Origin: Eubacteriales bacterium
GTDB lineage: Bacteria; Bacillota; Clostridia; Saccharofermentanales; Fastidiosipilaceae
DNA: 55,996 bases
Direction: 5' to 3'
Assembly: GCA_030537565.1 (NCBI GenBank)
Contig: JAUNVS010000004.1
Span: 1 to 55,996, forward strand
The first letter of the stretch is position 1, and each line of letters starts with the position of its first letter. Positions 14,215 to 29,026 of this stretch are shown piece by piece. Made by a program: the position numbers and the translations under genes. The notes beneath the pieces are model-generated. The model searched no databases. It was not told the DNA's origin and saw nothing but the letters and a program-made list of their open reading frames with translations.

Positions 14215-14354
14215 ACGGGGCGACTCCATTCATTGAACTCTAAATCCAACGGCTTGACAAACTGAGTGGATTGACTCGCGAATCCAAAAACGACAGTTTT
14301 TTGCCCTCAAAGTTTAAGAGGAGCCTCCTAGAATCGCGTCAGGAGGTGATTCAC

Positions 14355-14660
14355 ATGTCTAGAACCTTAGAGGCATCCTACGTGCTACCCATTTCGTTGA
14401 TCTTACTGATAACAGGATTCATCCTAGTTTTCATGTCGGTGATCAGCTGTCAATTGGCTTCGTTGGCCCACTTAAGATTGAGTTTTACCCGAAGTCGAAA
14501 TCAGCACTGCTATATCCAATATCAACAGAGTCCAGCTTCTCTTGATCCCTTCAATTCTCCGATCGAGTTGGCGGAGGCTGCGTCGAATTCTGAACAAGTT
14601 CTCTACCTCGCCTTTATCGTCGAAGATCTCTTTAATTTGGCAAAGGGGGGCGAGTCATGA
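14355..14660 (+). CDS. TadE-like pseudopilin
   Basis: A 101-residue membrane protein. Start ATG 14355 is set by AGGAGGTGAT seven bases upstream, the best ribosome binding site in the area. The N terminus reads TLEASYVLPISLILLITGF: a glutamate followed by a proline-interrupted hydrophobic helix, the usual TadE/pseudopilin pattern. The rest is a short soluble domain ending in LAKGGES. TadE-like proteins are minor pilins of Tad pili. It overlaps the next gene by four bases (ATGA), which marks the first of three coupled genes. Confidence 0.75.
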   Translation: MSRTLEASYVLPISLILLITGFILVFMSVISCQLASLAHLRLSFTRSRNQHCYIQYQQSPASLDPFNSPIELAEAASNSEQVLYLAFIVEDLFNLAKGGES

Positions 14661-16237
14661 ATCGTGATCGCTGTAGAGATCGAGGGGCGGTGACCATTAT
14701 GATGGCCCTCATCCTCGCCTCGTCGCTGAGTCTTCTGGGGGTTCTCGAGGTCTATGTGAATTACAAACTATTTGAAGCTCGCCTCGCCTCGGCGATGACG
14801 CAACAGATGGAGGTGCTGCTGGCCAATTACGATCGAAAACTCGCGGATCGATATGGTCTCATGGCTTTTCCGAAGTCAGTGCTGACCAGTCGAGATTTCG
14901 ATGAGCAGCTAAGCATGCACGCTCGTTTCCATCCCGAAGCGCAAGTGAGTGCTGAGAATCCTCTGGCTGAAGGCAGTGTCTTAGAGGAACAGATTCTCCT
15001 CTTTATGCGGCCCAGATTTCCGATTGCGGTCGGGCGGGCGGTTTTTGATCGGATTCGGGCCCTTGATCCCAAGCGACGCGAGCTCCCAGCTCTGCCTAAT
15101 CCAATCAACCCAGATCGAGATCTCTTGGGCGACGTAGAGTTTTCAGCGAGGGCCTTGCCTGCTCAATCTCCCGAGCTTTCGAGAGCGCAGGATCGCAGTG
15201 AGCCGGTCTATGAATTGCTCTGGACGCATCCATTATTTCCTTGGATTAATCGAGAAATTGATATCAATGATGGAGTGAATCGACTTCGAGATGCACTCGA
15301 GGGAAACGAGGTCGAAGAGCTGCTGCGCTACCGGGAAATGGCCAATATTGACGAGGAGAGCTATGAGGCACTCAGTCCTGATGAAAAGGCCAAGGTCGAT
15401 GCCCTCCGTCGTGAATCGATTAGTATGAATCATCTCCAGGAGATGATTTCGAAGCATCGCCGAGAGGGCTCAGAGTTATTTGCGGGGCATGAAAGTGTTG
15501 AACTCGCGAACTTGTTAAGTCGGGCGGAGGATTTGCTTCAACGCTTTCATGCGAGTGAGATCCCCGTCTACGATGCGATTTGTATCAATGAGTATGCCGT
15601 TTCGATGTTTTCATGTACAAGTCGCCCCCATAATGGTCAGGCTCCCGCTTCCAAGCTTAACTCACACATCACGATGCGAAGTCATCCATTTGCTACCCAG
15701 AGCTATTCCTCGCCCTATGAAGTCGAGGAGATCCTCACCGGCTTGTCTGGACAGAGTGCGGCCCTGCTCGCACAGTTTGAAGTCTTCTTGATGCGTCTGC
15801 TTGTCCAAAGCATCCATCTATTTACATCTCCGATGGGAGCGAATGGTTTGCGTTTGGCCGCAGCTGGCCTGACCTTTCTCGCCTGGATCTTCGGTATGCC
15901 CATCCCCTACCACGCCATTTTGAATTTCTTGATCTTTTTAAGAGCTTGCAAGTATTCGTATCGGGATCTCAGGGCCCTCAAACGGGGAGAGACTGTTCCA
16001 ATTTATCCAGGACATCCCCTGCAAGTGGACTATGTCGATTACATGAGGCTCTTTATGTTCCTTGTTCCCCGAGGGACGAAGCTGGTTCGAATTGGCAAAC
16101 AAATTGCTCGCAATTGTCCTGGTGATTTCTATACGCGGCTTCGAATCGAGGCACAGTGGGCTGTTGTTGGGAGGAGGAAGTCTGATGCCTTTGAAGATTA
16201 TTATCGACTCAGCTATCAGCCGCAGGACGCTTCCTGA
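14657..16237 (+). CDS. DUF5702-like membrane-anchored protein of the Tad-type cluster
   Basis: 526 residues. The N terminus RDRGAVTIMMALILASSLSL is a pseudopilin-like signal with an uncleaved helix at about 10-32, followed by ANYDRKLADRYGLMAF near residue 55. That is the DUF5702 pattern (EYDRxLxxxYGLF) found beside TadE/TadG-like genes in Clostridia. A long helical, charged extracytoplasmic region follows. A second hydrophobic region lies at about 385-440 (AAAGLTFLAWIFGMPIPYHA), then a basic tail. Start ATG 14657 sits in the ATGA overlap with the upstream pilin gene. Role: probably a structural or assembly component of a surface pilus; no catalytic motif is visible. Confidence 0.65.
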   Translation: MNRDRCRDRGAVTIMMALILASSLSLLGVLEVYVNYKLFEARLASAMTQQMEVLLANYDRKLADRYGLMAFPKSVLTSRDFDEQLSMHARFHPEAQVSAENPLAEGSVLEEQILLFMRPRFPIAVGRAVFDRIRALDPKRRELPALPNPINPDRDLLGDVEFSARALPAQSPELSRAQDRSEPVYELLWTHPLFPWINREIDINDGVNRLRDALEGNEVEELLRYREMANIDEESYEALSPDEKAKVDALRRESISMNHLQEMISKHRREGSELFAGHESVELANLLSRAEDLLQRFHASEIPVYDAICINEYAVSMFSCTSRPHNGQAPASKLNSHITMRSHPFATQSYSSPYEVEEILTGLSGQSAALLAQFEVFLMRLLVQSIHLFTSPMGANGLRLAAAGLTFLAWIFGMPIPYHAILNFLIFLRACKYSYRDLRALKRGETVPIYPGHPLQVDYVDYMRLFMFLVPRGTKLVRIGKQIARNCPGDFYTRLRIEAQWAVVGRRKSDAFEDYYRLSYQPQDAS

Positions 16238-17252
16238 ATCGGCAATCGTTCGTAAGCAGTGGAGGCATAAGCCGGGGGATCGCGCAGCGATTAGCCTAGA
16301 AGCGGCGTTGATTATGCCCTGGGTCATATTTTTTGTGATCGCCTTTGCCTATCTGATGCGGGCTCATGAGGCGGAGGTCCTCTGGCATGCAGCGGGCGCT
16401 CATGCGCTCGAAGAAGCGAAGCTGAGTTATAACATTGTGGGCTTGGCCGACCTATCTCAGGCGCAGGGGAAGCTGATGTCGAAGCTACCAGAGCCGCTTC
16501 GGCAGCCGATCCGCGACCTGATGATCCAGGGATTGGGGCGAGAACTCATTTTGCTTCGCCAGAAGAATCGATTTCAGCAGTATACGGAGTCACGGCCATA
16601 TCTTCGCAAGATTCTCAAGCCAGGCAGAGCTCATCTCAATGTCAATTTATCTCGACACCAAGCCTCGTATCGGAGTAACTATGACATCGAGTTGCTCTTT
16701 TACCGTGGTGAACGAGAGGATTGCCAGCAGTTGAGTTTGTGGAATTTAAAGGATCTCTCGAAGATTGCCGATCTGTCCGGAGATGACGCTAAGAAGAAGC
16801 GCGAGGATACCATTTGGTCAGAGACGAATTTTAAGCGCGGTGATTACTTTCGTGAAAAATATGGGGCGAATTTGCCACATAACTTCCCAGTGATTGCTGC
16901 GAAAAATGGCTCGCAGGTGACGATGATTAAGAGTATTGATCTCACAGCACCGACGTATCAGACCGCTCTCGGAATCGAAATTCACACGCAGGACTTGCTG
17001 ACTCGCTTACGAAGATATCAGGGGACCGGTGAGCGAGGCTATGCGGGCTATGTGATTCGACCCGAAGACATCCAATCCCGTAAATTAGTCGTGATCATTC
17101 CAGAGAACTCACCGGAAGCGGGGCGAATGCAGCTTGAGTTGATCCTGAGCAATTCGGGCATCGCCTATGAGATCTTTAGCGATGAGGCATCGTATCGTTA
17201 TCAGAGAGAGGCGGAGGGGGATGAGCCAAGCTTGGAGCGTGAGGCGGCCTGA
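16185..17252 (+). CDS. Large TadE/TadG-like pilin protein
   Basis: 355 residues from ATG 16185, which has GAGGAGGA at 16171-16178; longer in-frame starts lie deep in the upstream gene. The start overlaps the upstream gene by 53 bases. The segment GDRAAISLEAALIMPWVIF at residues 31-49 is the TadE-type motif (glutamate, then helix with proline). About 300 soluble residues follow. The C-terminal module at about 285-340 (GYAGYVIRPEDIQSRKL, then LELILSNSGIAYEIF) may be a conserved domain, but I do not recognise it. No prepilin peptidase, ATPase or TadB/C gene lies nearby, so the machine itself must be elsewhere. Confidence 0.65.
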   Translation: MPLKIIIDSAISRRTLPESAIVRKQWRHKPGDRAAISLEAALIMPWVIFFVIAFAYLMRAHEAEVLWHAAGAHALEEAKLSYNIVGLADLSQAQGKLMSKLPEPLRQPIRDLMIQGLGRELILLRQKNRFQQYTESRPYLRKILKPGRAHLNVNLSRHQASYRSNYDIELLFYRGEREDCQQLSLWNLKDLSKIADLSGDDAKKKREDTIWSETNFKRGDYFREKYGANLPHNFPVIAAKNGSQVTMIKSIDLTAPTYQTALGIEIHTQDLLTRLRRYQGTGERGYAGYVIRPEDIQSRKLVVIIPENSPEAGRMQLELILSNSGIAYEIFSDEASYRYQREAEGDEPSLEREAA

Positions 17253-22812: not shown

Positions 22813-24189
22813 TTATTCCTTCATATCTAAGTAGTGGCGGATGGCGCGCATTTGGCTCTGATAGCCTGTGCAGCGACAGAGGTTGCCAGAAAGTCGAGCC
22901 TTTATTTCCGAATCATTGGCATTAGGTTGTTGACGTTTGAGGGCGACGACTGAGAGGATGAAGCCTGGACTGCAGAAGCCACACTGTTCACCGCCTTCAG
23001 CGGCGAGGAGTCGGGCAAAACGACTGGCTTCATCGCGTTCGCCCTCGAGGGTTCGGACTTCCAAACCGTGGATTCGATGAGCTGGAATCGAACAGGATAG
23101 TCGTGCCTCGCCTTCGACGAGAACGGTGCAGAGACCGCAGCAGGAGCTCGAACAACCGGACTTCACGGAATACTTCCGCAGGCGTCGCAGTAGACTAAAG
23201 AGTGACTCATCCGCCGAAATCTGAGCATCGACGCGTCGCCCGTCCAGATAAAAGAAAAAGGGCTGGTCGAGCTCAGCATTGCTTGGAATAAAACTACCGT
23301 CTTCTAAGCGCAGACCCCGCGTTCCCTCGGGGATTTCAGGGGAGGCTTGGACTTCGACCTCTACGTGAAGGCTTGGGCAGCGCTTTAAATCGGCAATGAT
23401 GCGATCGAGGAGACTGTGACTCATGGCACGTCGATATTCTGCAGAGGCTCTCGAGTCTGATCCATATTTATAGTGGTCGAGTGCCGTGTGTGCGGCATGG
23501 AGACGCTCTGGATCGGAGAGTTCTTCAAGGGAGGCGCCCTCAAAGGCTGCCTCGACTTCGCTCAGTCGACGTGCTCGCGCAGGCATTGCACCCATGGCAA
23601 GAGCGAGGCCTGCTTCCTGTCGATAAGAGGCAGCCATATTTAAGCTCGGAAGGTCGCCGCTGTTGTATCGGATGCTGCCGAAGGCGGCTGCCTGAATCTG
23701 ACTTAAATTCTCAATTCGTATCGAGCGGAGGAGGTCCGTTCTCGATTTGGCGCTGAGAAAGTCGACGATGTTTTCCTCACCGGCTTCGAGCCAATCGAGT
23801 TTGGCATCGAGGGCGAGGAGGCAGGGGATGACATCCGAGTAGGCAAATTTACTGCAGAGACTAGCGCCCAGTTGGACTTCGCGCCTGAGTTGGATGCCAA
23901 CGATTTGGGCGCTTGCCTGGGGGAATAGACCAAAGGCCAAAGACTTGAGGCGGGGATCTGTTTCAAATTGACGTAGACTAAGGGCCGCTCCAAGTTCGAT
24001 CCCGTCTTCAATCGGGCGGTAGTAGTTCAGTCCGCTTCGACTGAGATCGATACCGCAGTGAAAGCGTTTGTTACTCCACATCCGCAAGTAGGCAGCACCG
24101 CCGAGGAGCACGTTGTCGGGATTTTCTTTTAATTTAGCGAGGGCATCTTCGGCTGATCGAGCTAAATAGTATTCCTCTAATTGGTACAT
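22813..24189 (-). CDS. Molybdenum hydroxylase, fused FAD and 2Fe-2S subunit
   Basis: 458 residues. The N-terminal CoxM-type FAD domain carries VLLGGAAYLRMW near residue 28 and LGASLCSKFAYSDVIPCLLAL at 108-128 as separate short motifs. The C-terminal part, from about 315, is a CoxS-type iron-sulfur domain: a plant-ferredoxin cluster with C346, C351, C354 and C366, and a second cluster with C403, C406, C438 and C440. In most bacteria these are two separate small subunits; in eukaryotic xanthine dehydrogenase the iron-sulfur part comes first. Here the order is FAD then iron-sulfur. It passes electrons from molybdenum to FAD. Start ATG 24189 follows GAGGAG. It is the first gene of the two-gene unit, and a terminator lies 33 bases upstream of it. 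Confidence 0.9.
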   Translation of the reverse strand: MYQLEEYYLARSAEDALAKLKENPDNVLLGGAAYLRMWSNKRFHCGIDLSRSGLNYYRPIEDGIELGAALSLRQFETDPRLKSLAFGLFPQASAQIVGIQLRREVQLGASLCSKFAYSDVIPCLLALDAKLDWLEAGEENIVDFLSAKSRTDLLRSIRIENLSQIQAAAFGSIRYNSGDLPSLNMAASYRQEAGLALAMGAMPARARRLSEVEAAFEGASLEELSDPERLHAAHTALDHYKYGSDSRASAEYRRAMSHSLLDRIIADLKRCPSLHVEVEVQASPEIPEGTRGLRLEDGSFIPSNAELDQPFFFYLDGRRVDAQISADESLFSLLRRLRKYSVKSGCSSSCCGLCTVLVEGEARLSCSIPAHRIHGLEVRTLEGERDEASRFARLLAAEGGEQCGFCSPGFILSVVALKRQQPNANDSEIKARLSGNLCRCTGYQSQMRAIRHYLDMKE

Positions 24190-24681: not shown

Positions 24682-24694
24682 AAAGGAGGATACG

Positions 24695-27600
24695 ATGAAA
24701 TTTAGAAGAAATGCATTTGTAGCGACGTGTTTAGGGCTTTTGCTCCTGTTTCTCTTCTGCTTACCAGGCTTTGGACTGAGTTTAGCGGAGAGTATCGATA
24801 CGCTCGAAGCGGTCGATTCGCTCGAGGAGGCGATGGAGGAGCAGAACCTGGCGACTGAGCGGCTTCCACTCGTTGAGGAGGAGGCGGCGGATGAGTCGAA
24901 TTTAAACGAAGCGCAAGAATTCGAGCAGGCGACTCCAGAAGATCCTTTGATTGAGATCGATTCAGATTCTCAGGGGATCGATGCGACAGATCGGCCTGAG
25001 ACCGAGGCGGAAGTAGATCCCTACCCGCCCCCTCGCTTCCCAGTTGGGACGCTGCGCAGTGCAGCTCGGCCTGGTTGGCGAATTGTGGCCTCGGGGGGGA
25101 AGACGATCGATGAGAAGGAGGAAGGCGGTCCTCTGGTTCAGGCGCTCAGATATACCAATGATGTCGAGAGCCTCGACTGCTTTTGCTTACAATACGATAC
25201 CTCTAATATTTCAGAAGGCTACTGGAGTGATCGATTTTATGTGAACGCAGAGCTGAGCAACCAGCTGGCTCGTGTTGTGGAAATTGGTTTTTTAAATACG
25301 GACCGCTCTTGGCGAAATCGATTTTATACACAGGCGGCGCTTTGGTACATTACTACACCAGGACACGCAATTTCTGATGGCCTCATTTTGCCGGAGGTCT
25401 TGGCCCTCGTTGAGGCCTCGAAGCAGGCGCCTCCAGACGGACCCGTTTTCGAGCATAAGAATATTGATTCATCGGGCATTTTTCGTCGATATAAGGGCGA
25501 GGGCTTTAGTATGACCTATGTCATCCCTGATAAGAGCGGGAAACTTAGTGACTATGAACTGGTGAGTGTGCCGTATAACGTCACGGCGCACATTGAGGGG
25601 AATTCACTGCATCTCCGTATTGGAGTTCGCGCCGATTTCTCTCAACCGATTATTCTCATGCCGAAGAATAAGTCGGCGGTGAAAGAACACTTTTTCTTAA
25701 AGAGTCTGTCGGATCAAGATGTTATCGTCCTCGGTAGTACCTTAGCAAAGGCGGTTGAGCTTCGCCTGGGCGAAGAGCCGCATACGCTCAGTAAAACTCT
25801 GCAAATACGCAAGCTGGATGCGAAGACGAAAGAGACGATTACGGGTGCAAAATTTGCCCTGTTCTGCGAGTCTGTGAACTCGAACTCTTTGCCAGACCAT
25901 GACCTGGTCGGAAATTATATTCCAGATTATCTAATCGATTACCAAGGGGATCTCTGCTTTGTTTACGGTGTTCCACCTGGCAAATATCGTGTGATTGAGA
26001 TTGAAGCCCCAGAGGGCTATCGAAGTAATCCGCATTTCGCCAAGATGGAGTCGGGTCCCTATGTGGGTAAGTCTTATATCAACATCGAGGTGCCACAGGA
26101 GAGTAGTACAGGGATCTATAGCATCGAAATTGAGAATCCACCGCTCGAGCGACCAGTACGGATTCAAAAGCGGGATGCGTTGACCGGCCTAGCGATCAAA
26201 TCGGATACAAAGCAGCTTAGCTATGATCTGCGTTTTGTCGCAGGGGTCGGTGATCAGCCCAGCGTATATAAGGGGCGGACGCTCAATCCTGGAGATGTCT
26301 TGGCCTATGATCTAAAGGCCTCGCCTGACGGCCTGCTTGAGATTACAGATTTAGTTGAGGGCGAGTATGATATCGTCGAACGCCAGCCACCGAATAGCCA
26401 TCACACAAATCCAACGGCCGTTCGCTTTGCCGTTTTAAAGGATGAGGCTGGGGAGCTGCAGGTGCACATGCTGTCCGAAAATCGTGCATCGGCCTGTGAA
26501 ACCCATGCTGAACTTGAGAAACGCTATCAGGAACGTCGCGCAGAATTGGGATTTGAAGCGCTTGCGATGCCGAGTTCCGAGCGTCCTTACCAGCTTTTTA
26601 ATGAAAGTGAAACGCCTGCTGGTGAGATCAATTTCTATGATCGACCGATCTTTGCCTACGTGGAAATTGAAAAGTGGCTCACGGGTGGCGATGAGGAGGG
26701 CATTGAAGCGGAGGCCAAGTTTGAAATCTTGGATGCTGCGGGGACGGTGGTCGAAACCCTAAGTACGAATCAGGAGGGAAAGGCGATTTCCTCCCTACTT
26801 CCAGCAGGGACATACCGATTGCGTCAAGTTGCGGGTGACGCGAAATATAACTACATCGACGAACAGAGTTTCGTCATTGATTCCAAGTCTGAGATCCTCA
26901 AATTCAAGCTCCTCGATACAGCGAAACACTTCTTTTTGAAGGTGAAAAAGATCGATGCGATGAGCCAACAGGCGATTGTTTCGAAGCTCTGTTGCTTCAA
27001 ACTCTATCGCCAAGCTGAAGGCGGTGAAGCCCTGACTCTAAAAATGGTTGGTGAAGCGCCTTCTGAGCTACTCTGCACAGATTCGGAGGGGATGATCAGT
27101 CTTGAGACACCCCTGGTCTACGGGGACTATTATTTAGAGGAGTTGGAGACAGATCCTGCTTACTACCTCGATCCGAATCGTACGCGCTATCACTTTCGCA
27201 TCGACTCCGAGGCGCAGCTCGCAGCAGGGGATGTCTTTATGATTGAAATTGAAAATCGAGCTCGGCAGGCACAATTTAGTCTCGAGAAGCATGGCGAGGT
27301 CCTCGAAGCGATTGGCTTCGAAGCGCTGGAGATCCGTAACTTGCTCGAAGTCGCGGAGGATGATTCGCTGGCGAATTACGAACTGCACCCCGAGGTCCAA
27401 GCGGGAGGGCTTTCTAAACTTAAGTTGGACTTTGTCGACCGGCCATTGAGCGGGGTTGGCTTCGTACTCTATGCGGAACAAGACATTGCGAAGCCAGGAC
27501 AAGATCCCAATTCGGAGAGTATTGAATATCTCCATCGTAAGGGGGATGAGGTTCTCCGCTTCGAGACCGATGCGCAGGGACAATATCAGTCTCCACAGCT

Positions 27601-29026
27601 GGCTTTAGGACTCTATCGACTTCATGAGTTGGAAGCCCCCCTGGGTTATGCAGAGGTGGAAGATCTCCTGATCGATCTGCGAAACGAAGACCAGAGCCTC
27701 GAGATTTTTAGTCACAGTGAGCGCCTCGAGAATCAGCGGCAACGATTCCAGCTGAATCTAAATAAGGAATTTGAAACTCCGAAATACTCTCGTCCGCGGA
27801 ATCAACGGGCAGTCTTTGCCTTAGTAAACTCTGAGGAGATGAAATTACAGGAGACGACGATTCCAGTTGGAAGCATCATGGACGTCGTCGTGGTCGATGG
27901 CGCCTCTGAACTAAGTCTCGAAGCCGCCCTCGCTGGAAAATACGTCGTCCGTGAATTGGCGTGTACGAAGGGATACCAGTTGAGTGAAGATGAGATCGTC
28001 GAGCTGAATTATCAAACGGCGCCGAGCACGTATCTGATTAAAAAGAACTTGGCAGCGAGGAAGAATGCCCTGAAGTCGGCTCGCCTGAGTCTGGTTAAAC
28101 GTGATGCTAACAGTGATCAGCCGCTTGCTGGTGTTAAATTCATTCTCTGGGCGATGGAGGACGGTGGACGGCGTGAGGCTGCTCGATTTGAGACGGATGA
28201 GTCGGGCATGATCGTCATCGATGAACTCAACTATGGTCGCTATTACTTAGAAGAGGCCGAGGCCCTGCCGGGTTATCGGATGGGTGAAGGTCAGGAAGTC
28301 GTTGTCGACGGTGAGACGACAGAGCTGCAACTGGAGTTTAAGAACGAAGAAAGCGAGGTCTTAATTCGTAAAGAAGATGCAGAGGGGCGTGCTTTGGTGG
28401 ATGCTGAGCTGGCCCTCTATGACAGTGAGGGTGTGGAAATCGAACGTTGGACGAGTACGGCTGAGGCACATCGAATTCGTGGTTTGGAGATTGATCGGGT
28501 CTACGAGTTGCGAGAGATCACGGCCCCTCCAGGTTATCGCAGGGGACGGAGCTTGCGCTTCAAACTCGATGCGTCAGGGATTGAGACGATTCAGTTTAAA
28601 AACGAGAAAACCTCCCTGCGTGTGAAAAAACTGGATCGCAGTAGTGGGGAGCTGCTCGCTGACTGCGAACTGAGGATTGTCGATGAGGGCGGTGAAGAGG
28701 TCTGTCGTTTTACGACGGAGAAGCGAGTCAAACGAATTCGTGGACTAGAGATCGCTAAGCGATATCGCTTGGAGGAATTGACTGCTGCGGAGGGGTATTC
28801 GATCGCAGAGCCGCTCGACTTTGTCTTAAACGACGCCGGCGATATGGAGCTTCTCTTTTACAATGACCGGATAGATGGAGGCGGTGGAGATCCGCCAGCT
28901 GGCTCCTCTGATTCGTCGAAGGGCGGGCGACTGCCATCGACGGGGGAAGCGACGGCAGCAGCGAGTGCATCGGGCTTCCTCATGAGTATCGCTTACTTCA
29001 TATACATGTTTAAGCGTCGTTTGTAG
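24695..29026 (+). CDS. LPxTG-anchored thioester adhesin with SpaA-type repeats
   Basis: 1443-residue cell-wall protein. Start ATG 24695 is fixed by AAAGGAGG. It begins with a signal peptide (hydrophobic run at about 8-30) and an acidic linker to about 110. The next domain looks like a thioester adhesin domain: FCL with Cys164, then YTQAALWYIT with Gln213, the expected Cys-Gln pair. From about 365 to 1395 there are about nine SpaA/Cna-B-like repeats. Each opens with a lysine strand such as LVKRDANSDQPLAGVKF and closes with an E-box such as YYLEEAEALPGY, the setting for Lys-Asn isopeptide bonds. The end is LPSTG at 1413-1417, a hydrophobic helix and KRRL. A sortase would couple it to peptidoglycan; none is in the window. 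Confidence 0.88.
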   Translation: MKFRRNAFVATCLGLLLLFLFCLPGFGLSLAESIDTLEAVDSLEEAMEEQNLATERLPLVEEEAADESNLNEAQEFEQATPEDPLIEIDSDSQGIDATDRPETEAEVDPYPPPRFPVGTLRSAARPGWRIVASGGKTIDEKEEGGPLVQALRYTNDVESLDCFCLQYDTSNISEGYWSDRFYVNAELSNQLARVVEIGFLNTDRSWRNRFYTQAALWYITTPGHAISDGLILPEVLALVEASKQAPPDGPVFEHKNIDSSGIFRRYKGEGFSMTYVIPDKSGKLSDYELVSVPYNVTAHIEGNSLHLRIGVRADFSQPIILMPKNKSAVKEHFFLKSLSDQDVIVLGSTLAKAVELRLGEEPHTLSKTLQIRKLDAKTKETITGAKFALFCESVNSNSLPDHDLVGNYIPDYLIDYQGDLCFVYGVPPGKYRVIEIEAPEGYRSNPHFAKMESGPYVGKSYINIEVPQESSTGIYSIEIENPPLERPVRIQKRDALTGLAIKSDTKQLSYDLRFVAGVGDQPSVYKGRTLNPGDVLAYDLKASPDGLLEITDLVEGEYDIVERQPPNSHHTNPTAVRFAVLKDEAGELQVHMLSENRASACETHAELEKRYQERRAELGFEALAMPSSERPYQLFNESETPAGEINFYDRPIFAYVEIEKWLTGGDEEGIEAEAKFEILDAAGTVVETLSTNQEGKAISSLLPAGTYRLRQVAGDAKYNYIDEQSFVIDSKSEILKFKLLDTAKHFFLKVKKIDAMSQQAIVSKLCCFKLYRQAEGGEALTLKMVGEAPSELLCTDSEGMISLETPLVYGDYYLEELETDPAYYLDPNRTRYHFRIDSEAQLAAGDVFMIEIENRARQAQFSLEKHGEVLEAIGFEALEIRNLLEVAEDDSLANYELHPEVQAGGLSKLKLDFVDRPLSGVGFVLYAEQDIAKPGQDPNSESIEYLHRKGDEVLRFETDAQGQYQSPQLALGLYRLHELEAPLGYAEVEDLLIDLRNEDQSLEIFSHSERLENQRQRFQLNLNKEFETPKYSRPRNQRAVFALVNSEEMKLQETTIPVGSIMDVVVVDGASELSLEAALAGKYVVRELACTKGYQLSEDEIVELNYQTAPSTYLIKKNLAARKNALKSARLSLVKRDANSDQPLAGVKFILWAMEDGGRREAARFETDESGMIVIDELNYGRYYLEEAEALPGYRMGEGQEVVVDGETTELQLEFKNEESEVLIRKEDAEGRALVDAELALYDSEGVEIERWTSTAEAHRIRGLEIDRVYELREITAPPGYRRGRSLRFKLDASGIETIQFKNEKTSLRVKKLDRSSGELLADCELRIVDEGGEEVCRFTTEKRVKRIRGLEIAKRYRLEELTAAEGYSIAEPLDFVLNDAGDMELLFYNDRIDGGGGDPPAGSSDSSKGGRLPSTGEATAAASASGFLMSIAYFIYMFKRRL

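Follow-up and report, generated by a model that had tools for sequence, protein, structure and literature searches.

Which glutamine closes the internal thioester of a large bacterial surface protein, and what kind of protein is it? The question is raised by a 55,996-nucleotide stretch of DNA (the window) from an uncultured Clostridia-type lineage of the family Fastidiosipilaceae (contig JAUNVS010000004.1 of assembly GCA_030537565.1), where a genuine adhesin gene at 24695-29026 on the forward strand encodes 1443 residues from ATG 24695. A first-pass annotation had described a thioester adhesin on an isopeptide-type stalk, bonded internally between Cys164 and Gln213. The general description is supported by the sequence, but the bond partner named is not: Cys164 is almost certainly paired, to judge from alignment with a proven thioester domain (TED), with Gln341. 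Our best explanation, to which we assign a probability of roughly 0.77, is a surface protein of the TIE (thioester, isopeptide, ester) type, with a class II TED, a predicted Cys164-Gln341 thioester and a wall-anchored stalk of nine CnaB/SpaA domains. Adhesins of this kind are already known from other Gram-positive bacteria; an open-literature search, not aimed at the lineage, found no paper on this protein.

The glutamine partner of Cys164

The residues concerned lie in the head of the protein:

25127-25819, forward strand: putative class II TED, residues ~145-375 (profile match to the SaTIE TED, 6FX6; target-free profile; weak Pfam TED match)
25184-25186, forward strand: Cys164, predicted thioester cysteine, in the FCLQ motif (Cys in 33/33 relatives; aligns with SaTIE Cys296)
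25331-25333, forward strand: Gln213 in TQAALW, a TQxxPhiW helix motif, predicted not to be the bond partner (Gln in 25/33 relatives; literature)
25715-25717, forward strand: Gln341, predicted thioester glutamine (Gln in 33/33 relatives; aligns with SaTIE Gln467)

Both motifs pointed out earlier, FCL (163-165) and TQAALW (212-217), are in place: FCLQ at 163-166 fits the [YFL]C-Phi-zeta cysteine motif and TQAALW fits TQxxPhiW. Conservation was assessed in 33 relatives, drawn from 52 frames matching at 1e-4 by leaving out the target, its copy (L169), duplicates (L167, L168 and L075) and 14 frames short of profile positions 15-244. All 33 have Cys in the Cys164 column and Gln in the Gln341 column, whereas the Gln213 column holds Gln in 25, Lys in seven and Arg in one, the Arg row (L195) being poorly aligned there. 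In alignment A1, which comprises the target and ten relatives (11 rows), residues 47 and 218 of the 6FX6 chain line up with the columns of Cys164 and Gln341. Given the construct Gln254-Gly502 and four inferred extra N-terminal residues, these correspond to Cys296 and Gln467 of SaTIE, with which the spacing of 171 agrees, and Cys296-Gln467 is reported as a proven thioester pair (PMC6194298).

The literature on other TEDs points the same way. In the available text of two studies, structures and mutagenesis place the bond glutamine on a late strand, and TQxxPhiW forms a helix motif of its own, in which the thioester requires neither the Gln nor the Trp (PMC4450167, PMC6194298). The spacings given there for known Cys-Gln pairs are 129-153 in class I and, in class II, 171 for SaTIE and 204 for EfmTIE86, while the pair modelled in TIEpLS20 is 188 apart (PMC8092201); in the six pairs quoted, the glutamine thus lies 129-204 residues C-terminal to the cysteine. 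A Cys164-Gln213 bond has in its favour that both residues are present and that TQAALW is a recognised TED motif. Set against this literature, and against the eight relatives with Lys or Arg in the Gln213 column that still keep the cysteine and the late glutamine, we consider such a bond extremely improbable. It had been proposed that a large distance between Cys164 and Gln213 in a predicted structure would refute their pairing; the test would not discriminate: a hydrogen bond joins the side chain of the TQ glutamine to the backbone of the cysteine in solved class II TEDs (PMC6194298, available text).

The five remaining glutamines between residues 165 and 375, at 166, 190, 244, 317 and 370, were considered as partners and rejected, their columns holding Gln in at most seven of the 33 relatives. 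Two residues before Cys164 there is a second cysteine, Cys162 (window 25178-25180), a position at which none of the 33 relatives has Cys.

A probable class II thioester head

Profile comparisons make a class II thioester domain, of the kind found in TIE proteins, the most likely identity of the head. Only three columns of A1 are invariant, those of Cys164, Asp279 and Gln341, and the target shares 11-20% identity with the ten relatives. The A1 profile, which includes the target, matches the SaTIE TED (6FX6) at E 1e-20 across the whole domain. A profile built from the ten other rows alone scores the target TED at 20.1 bits and the full protein at 16.1, whereas none of 2000 shuffles exceeded 4.2 bits; this target-free profile places Gln341 on the glutamine column. 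Alignment of the target against the same ten rows with hhalign extends over 217 columns, through all three motifs, with a probability of 88. A second set of TEDs, aligned from viral contigs (A7), has the same Cys and Gln columns. The match to the Pfam TED family (PF08341) that had been proposed as a check is obtained in part: the score is 16.9 bits over the whole protein, under the cut-off of 22, and 22.2 bits frame-wise, just above it, so that Pfam alone is marginal. The model matches none of 14 control genomes, the adhesin is its sole match in its own genome at E up to 1, and PF08341 is found in 61 of 391 genomes of the class.

A beta-sandwich inserted between helix 3 and the final hairpin sets class II TEDs apart from class I, where it is lacking (PMC6194298, available text). 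Through the corresponding region the target sequence aligns with SaTIE, and both AlphaFold2 models, themselves of low confidence, have strands there (block pLDDT ~56-76). In the first model Cys164 lies on a strand, TQAALW is helical and Gln341 occupies the turn joining two late strands; at this low confidence, such an order of features is compatible with class II. A Foldseek search with the same model finds 6FX6 as best match, the only one of 168 below 0.001.

Several observations weigh against this assignment. The Foldseek match has a TM of only 0.15 and is therefore no superposition; the two AlphaFold2 runs, both on six-row alignments, have poor mean pLDDT values of 46.6 and 43.8, and the second model puts Cys164 and Gln341 in coil, with no strand at either. 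SaTIE is the sole TED chain matched in the PDB by the A1 profile, and among the 24 chains listed by a PDB search with the single sequence none is named as a TED. As a single query the target TED finds just one other genome among the 188 of the order. In two earlier TED profiles, the first of which mixed short and long TEDs, the target reached only E 0.56 and 0.64, barely above the best shuffles. On its own, the Cys/TQ half scores -0.3 bits, about zero, in the target-free profile; since this half adds nothing to the hmmsearch score, the placing of Cys164 leans on the multiple alignments and on its motif. Nor are the 33 relatives independent of one another, ten having built the profile and two groups (L077-L079; L182, L185 and L190) looking closely alike. 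Spacings are slightly short, 177 from Cys164 to Gln341 against 178-267 in the 33 relatives, and 49 from Cys164 to the TQ motif against 53-83. Besides the whole-protein Pfam score below cut-off, no NCBIfam model reaches its cut-off on the protein, the LPXTG model scoring 15.2 bits where 15.9 is needed. Finally, the extra Cys162 could interfere with the thioester.

Some of these points would fit a TED fold that has no working thioester and serves as an ordinary non-covalent adhesin or a spacer. The weak Pfam score, the divergence of the sequence, the nearby Cys162 and the low confidence of the models all lean that way, but both bond residues are intact and aligned with a proven pair, and we judge a thioester-less head rather improbable. 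A class II TED with a Cys164-Gln341 bond is the reading that we prefer.

The A1 profile has matches in 31 of the 188 genomes. Among viral contigs, five more TED loci of class II type were identified with the A3 profile, and further matches lay on the same contigs (L162-L163, L164-L166); no match was obtained there with the target TED, A5 or the TED of G002, a genome of the same family. A tblastn search for relatives of the TED on plasmids gave no match, and in genome contigs no relatives of the full protein were confirmed by peptide pattern.

One of the closest known systems is SaTIE of Staphylococcus aureus VRS11b: like the present protein, to judge from the profile match, it has a class II TED ahead of a multi-domain stalk, and its TED construct starts far from the N-terminus. 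Its stalk differs, consisting of four predicted isopeptide and two ester domains (PMC6194298, available text) in place of nine SpaA repeats; the Pfam list of our protein contains no ester domain. BaTIE (Bacillus anthracis) and EfmTIE86 (Enterococcus faecium) are reported to bear class II TEDs on three and five CnaB domains, respectively (PMC6194298), stalks shorter than that seen here, and neither chain appears in the A1 profile search at E up to 1. TIEpLS20 (p34 of the Bacillus subtilis plasmid pLS20) likewise combines a class II TED, with Cys68-Gln256 modelled as the pair, and a CnaB-type stalk; its gene is described as part of a conjugation operon on the plasmid, and the protein as having no coupling to a sortase (PMC8092201), whereas the present gene is apparently chromosomal and its product has an LPSTG motif. 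The class I proteins SfbI, FbaB and Cpa share the thioester head, which in SfbI bonds fibrinogen covalently (PMC4450167, available text), but are described as lacking the beta-sandwich insert (PMC6194298). No fibronectin-binding repeat is found in the Pfam list of our protein.

Stalk, wall anchor and acidic lead

The remainder of the protein is laid out as follows, repeats 1-5 and 7-9 being supported by Pfam, the genome search and motifs read by eye:

24695-24787, forward strand: signal peptide, residues 1-31, boundary approximate (basic start and hydrophobic core, read from the sequence)
24785-25048, forward strand: acidic lead, probably disordered, residues 31-118, 32% Asp/Glu (composition)
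25793-26143, forward strand: SpaA repeat 1, triad K373/E435/N481
26150-26647, forward strand: SpaA repeat 2, triad K492/E562/D649, an additional stretch separating Glu from Asp
26654-26923, forward strand: SpaA repeat 3, K660/Q711/D741, Gln in place of the catalytic Glu
26930-27262, forward strand: SpaA repeat 4, triad K752/E816/N854
27269-27739, forward strand: SpaA repeat 5, triad K865/E978/N1013, an additional stretch following the Lys
27746-28054, forward strand: SpaA-like repeat 6, triad K1024/E1087/N1118, the weakest, its Asn least certain (motifs by eye; colinear with G002)
28079-28351, forward strand: SpaA repeat 7, triad K1135/E1187/N1217
28352-28609, forward strand: SpaA repeat 8, triad K1226/E1274/N1303
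28610-28870, forward strand: SpaA repeat 9, triad K1312/E1361/N1390
28931-29023, forward strand: LPSTG sorting signal, membrane segment and basic tail, residues 1413-1443 (motif; Gram_pos_anchor match)

The count of about nine SpaA repeats given in the first-pass annotation agrees with the Pfam SpaA model (whole-protein E 2.7e-79), which matches nine stretches at E up to 1, although a search of the genome at E 0.001 recovers eight and misses repeat 6. The same model has matches in seven of the 14 control genomes, and Pfam SdrD_B also matches over repeat 3. CnaB domains typically contain a Lys-Asn or Lys-Asp link whose formation is catalysed by a Glu (PMC12617251, available text). With positions chosen by eye from strand and E-box motifs, a complete triad can be read in eight of the nine repeats, seven with Asn and one with Asp, so that the statement that the repeats keep their Lys and E-box Glu applies to all except repeat 3. 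Here Gln711 stands for the catalytic Glu, and the repeat probably lacks an isopeptide bond.

Two proteins from other genomes of the family allow the stalk to be compared, in a three-protein alignment that is sound in the stalk only, the G002 TED being misplaced in it against the acidic lead of the target. The G002 homologue (L017, 1323 aa) has a class II TED and is colinear with repeats 1-8 at about 30% identity, including the E-box Gln of repeat 3. It differs in having its thioester Cys at residue 79, with no acidic lead, and no LPXTG motif; an extra SpaA repeat lies between TED and repeat 1 and repeat 9 has no match, for a total of nine stretches. The G005 protein (L199 1-3081, reverse strand) follows the order of the target over repeats 1-5 and then meets the contig end; it has no TED match, and its head matches nothing in Pfam at E 0.1, so that exchange of the head on a conserved stalk is possible. 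At the position of Gln711, Gln is found in two of these three colinear proteins (the target and G002) and in two of six genomes matching repeats 2-4 at 1e-8, our own genome counted; Glu is present in G005 and in three further genomes, G029, G034 and G040, that match over repeats 3-4. It is tempting, if quite speculative and in our estimation doubtful, to imagine a stalk that keeps a largely fixed order across three genera of the family, instead of expanding freely, on which heads are exchanged, and in which the un-crosslinked repeat 3 acts as a mechanical fuse yielding under load. Were this true, repeat 3 would be a built-in fuse in an otherwise inextensible covalent tether.

At the C-terminus LPSTG, at 1413, is followed by a hydrophobic segment and a KRR tail. 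Gram_pos_anchor scores 15.2 bits over the whole protein and 21.4 frame-wise for a cut-off of 20, and thus exceeds it, narrowly, only frame-wise. Genome-wide there are seven anchor-like matches at E up to 1, four of them over cut-off; the model also matches 13 of the 14 control genomes, over cut-off in two.

The absence of a sortase or pilin partner nearby, remarked on earlier, holds for the contig of the adhesin (C23), on which there is no sortase match and, at E 0.001, no second SpaA gene. It does not extend to the genome, where a sortase-domain protein is encoded on contig C76 (93.5 bits, cut-off 26.6), beside genes that by eye are glycogen-phosphorylase-like and HtpG-like. The only other sortase match is on C26, and other SpaA matches are on C64 and C26. 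That the protein might sit as ancillary subunit at the tip of a pilus built by sortase is suggested by Cpa, a pilus protein reported to carry TEDs (PMC6194298, PMC4450167), and by a score of 30 bits, where the cut-off is 95, with the NCBIfam SpaH/EbpB pilin model. Both sortases and the other SpaA matches nevertheless lie on contigs other than C23, and the neighbours of the C76 sortase are those just described. A pilus cluster could be missing from the assembly, because the genome is 84% complete, but we regard a pilus-tip role as very improbable and prefer a wall-anchored, TIE-type protein.

Three other loci deserve mention. Contig C64 (L197 2251-9585) encodes a surface protein of 2444 aa that ends in a non-standard VPSAG and contains two Rib stretches and six of SpaA. 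On C26 (L198 845-2825) a VPQTG surface protein and a weaker, SrtB-like sortase stand in tandem beside genes that by eye resemble VirB-type conjugation genes. In genome G011 (L200 1480-4956, reverse strand), a 1158-aa protein matches TED weakly and has SpaA repeats together with PF22343, the 'pilus-presented adhesin helical insertion domain'.

The acidic stretch ahead of the TED is, as had been noted, unusually long among the relatives examined. Asp and Glu make up 32% of residues 31-118 and 26% of residues 31-163, compared with at most 23% in the pre-Cys segments of relatives. The thioester Cys, at residue 164 here, has a median position of 82.5 and a maximum of 121 in the 32 of 33 relatives with a placeable start, a number that includes L188, whose placed start gives an implausible Cys position of 8. 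There may be precedent for a long N-terminal lead in SaTIE and CdTEP, whose TED constructs are reported to begin at Gln254 and Glu171, respectively (PMC6194298, PMC4450167).

Genomic setting, likely targets and significance

The start of the gene was assigned from the following feature:

24682-24689, forward strand: ribosome-binding site AAAGGAGG, 5 bases ahead of ATG 24695 (read from the sequence)

Because AAAGGAGG sits 5 bases 5' of ATG 24695, this start is preferred to the less likely TTG 24677 of the open reading frame list. The window is part of C23, in an assembly of 1.59 Mb, 81 contigs and 84% completeness, and the genes around the adhesin read as metabolic and housekeeping. With a GC content of 0.513 in the gene and 0.515 in the window, base composition gives no sign of recent acquisition. 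Among the best 80 of 594 relatives of SecA are metagenome-assembled genomes (MAGs) of uncultured Clostridia with identities of 62%, under a yak rumen title, and of 60%; several MAG titles among these 80 name gut or rumen samples, and identities do not exceed 62%.

Elsewhere in the window, two ABC_sub_bind genes (PF04392; 278-1435 and 3652-4683) enclose permease-like and ATPase-like genes, giving one transport cluster with a duplicated binding protein. Three open reading frames at 14271-17252 look by eye like TadE/TadG-type membrane-anchored proteins; one matches DUF5702 (28.5 bits, cut-off 26), and for the remaining pair neither Pfam nor NCBIfam gives a match at E 0.01. A 458-aa frame at 22813-24189 on the reverse strand fuses FAD_binding_5, CO_deh_flav_C, Fer2 and Fer2_2 and adjoins an 806-aa frame that reads as a molybdopterin subunit, in a fused, xanthine-dehydrogenase-like arrangement.

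How the protein would work can be sketched from its parts. After secretion by its signal peptide it would be joined through LPSTG to the cell wall, by a sortase whose gene lies elsewhere in the genome. The nine CnaB/SpaA domains would then make up an extended stalk in which eight, as their residues suggest, are probably locked by a Lys-Asn or Lys-Asp bond with the E-box Glu as catalyst. The head would bear a thioester between Cys164 and Gln341, not Gln213, by analogy with the proven TED to which it aligns. By the chemistry of SfbI, an amine reaching the pocket would take over the Gln341 acyl group from Cys164, leaving a lasting covalent tether.

What the head would grip is a separate matter, candidates being the host, plant fibre or another bacterium; that the target is the host is an assumption. 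The same chemistry might be turned on bacteria rather than host tissue, as with TIEpLS20, an adhesin with a class II TED that a conjugative plasmid is reported to need for efficient mating (PMC8092201), and conjugation-type genes are seen by eye on contig C26 of the same genome. Nevertheless, the adhesin gene, itself of typical GC, stands among ordinary-looking chromosomal genes and not in a transfer operon, and its product has its own LPSTG. A bacterial target, which would be compatible with our best explanation, is unlikely, though the least so of the alternatives raised here.

The TIE-type assignment, with the bond partner corrected, would add a class II adhesin from an uncultured Clostridia-type lineage to those known, and would make a clear case against reading the TQ motif as the thioester glutamine in genome annotation. 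The seven of 33 relatives with Lys at the TQ position, their Cys and late Gln intact, would be natural test cases for the role of the TQ helix motif.

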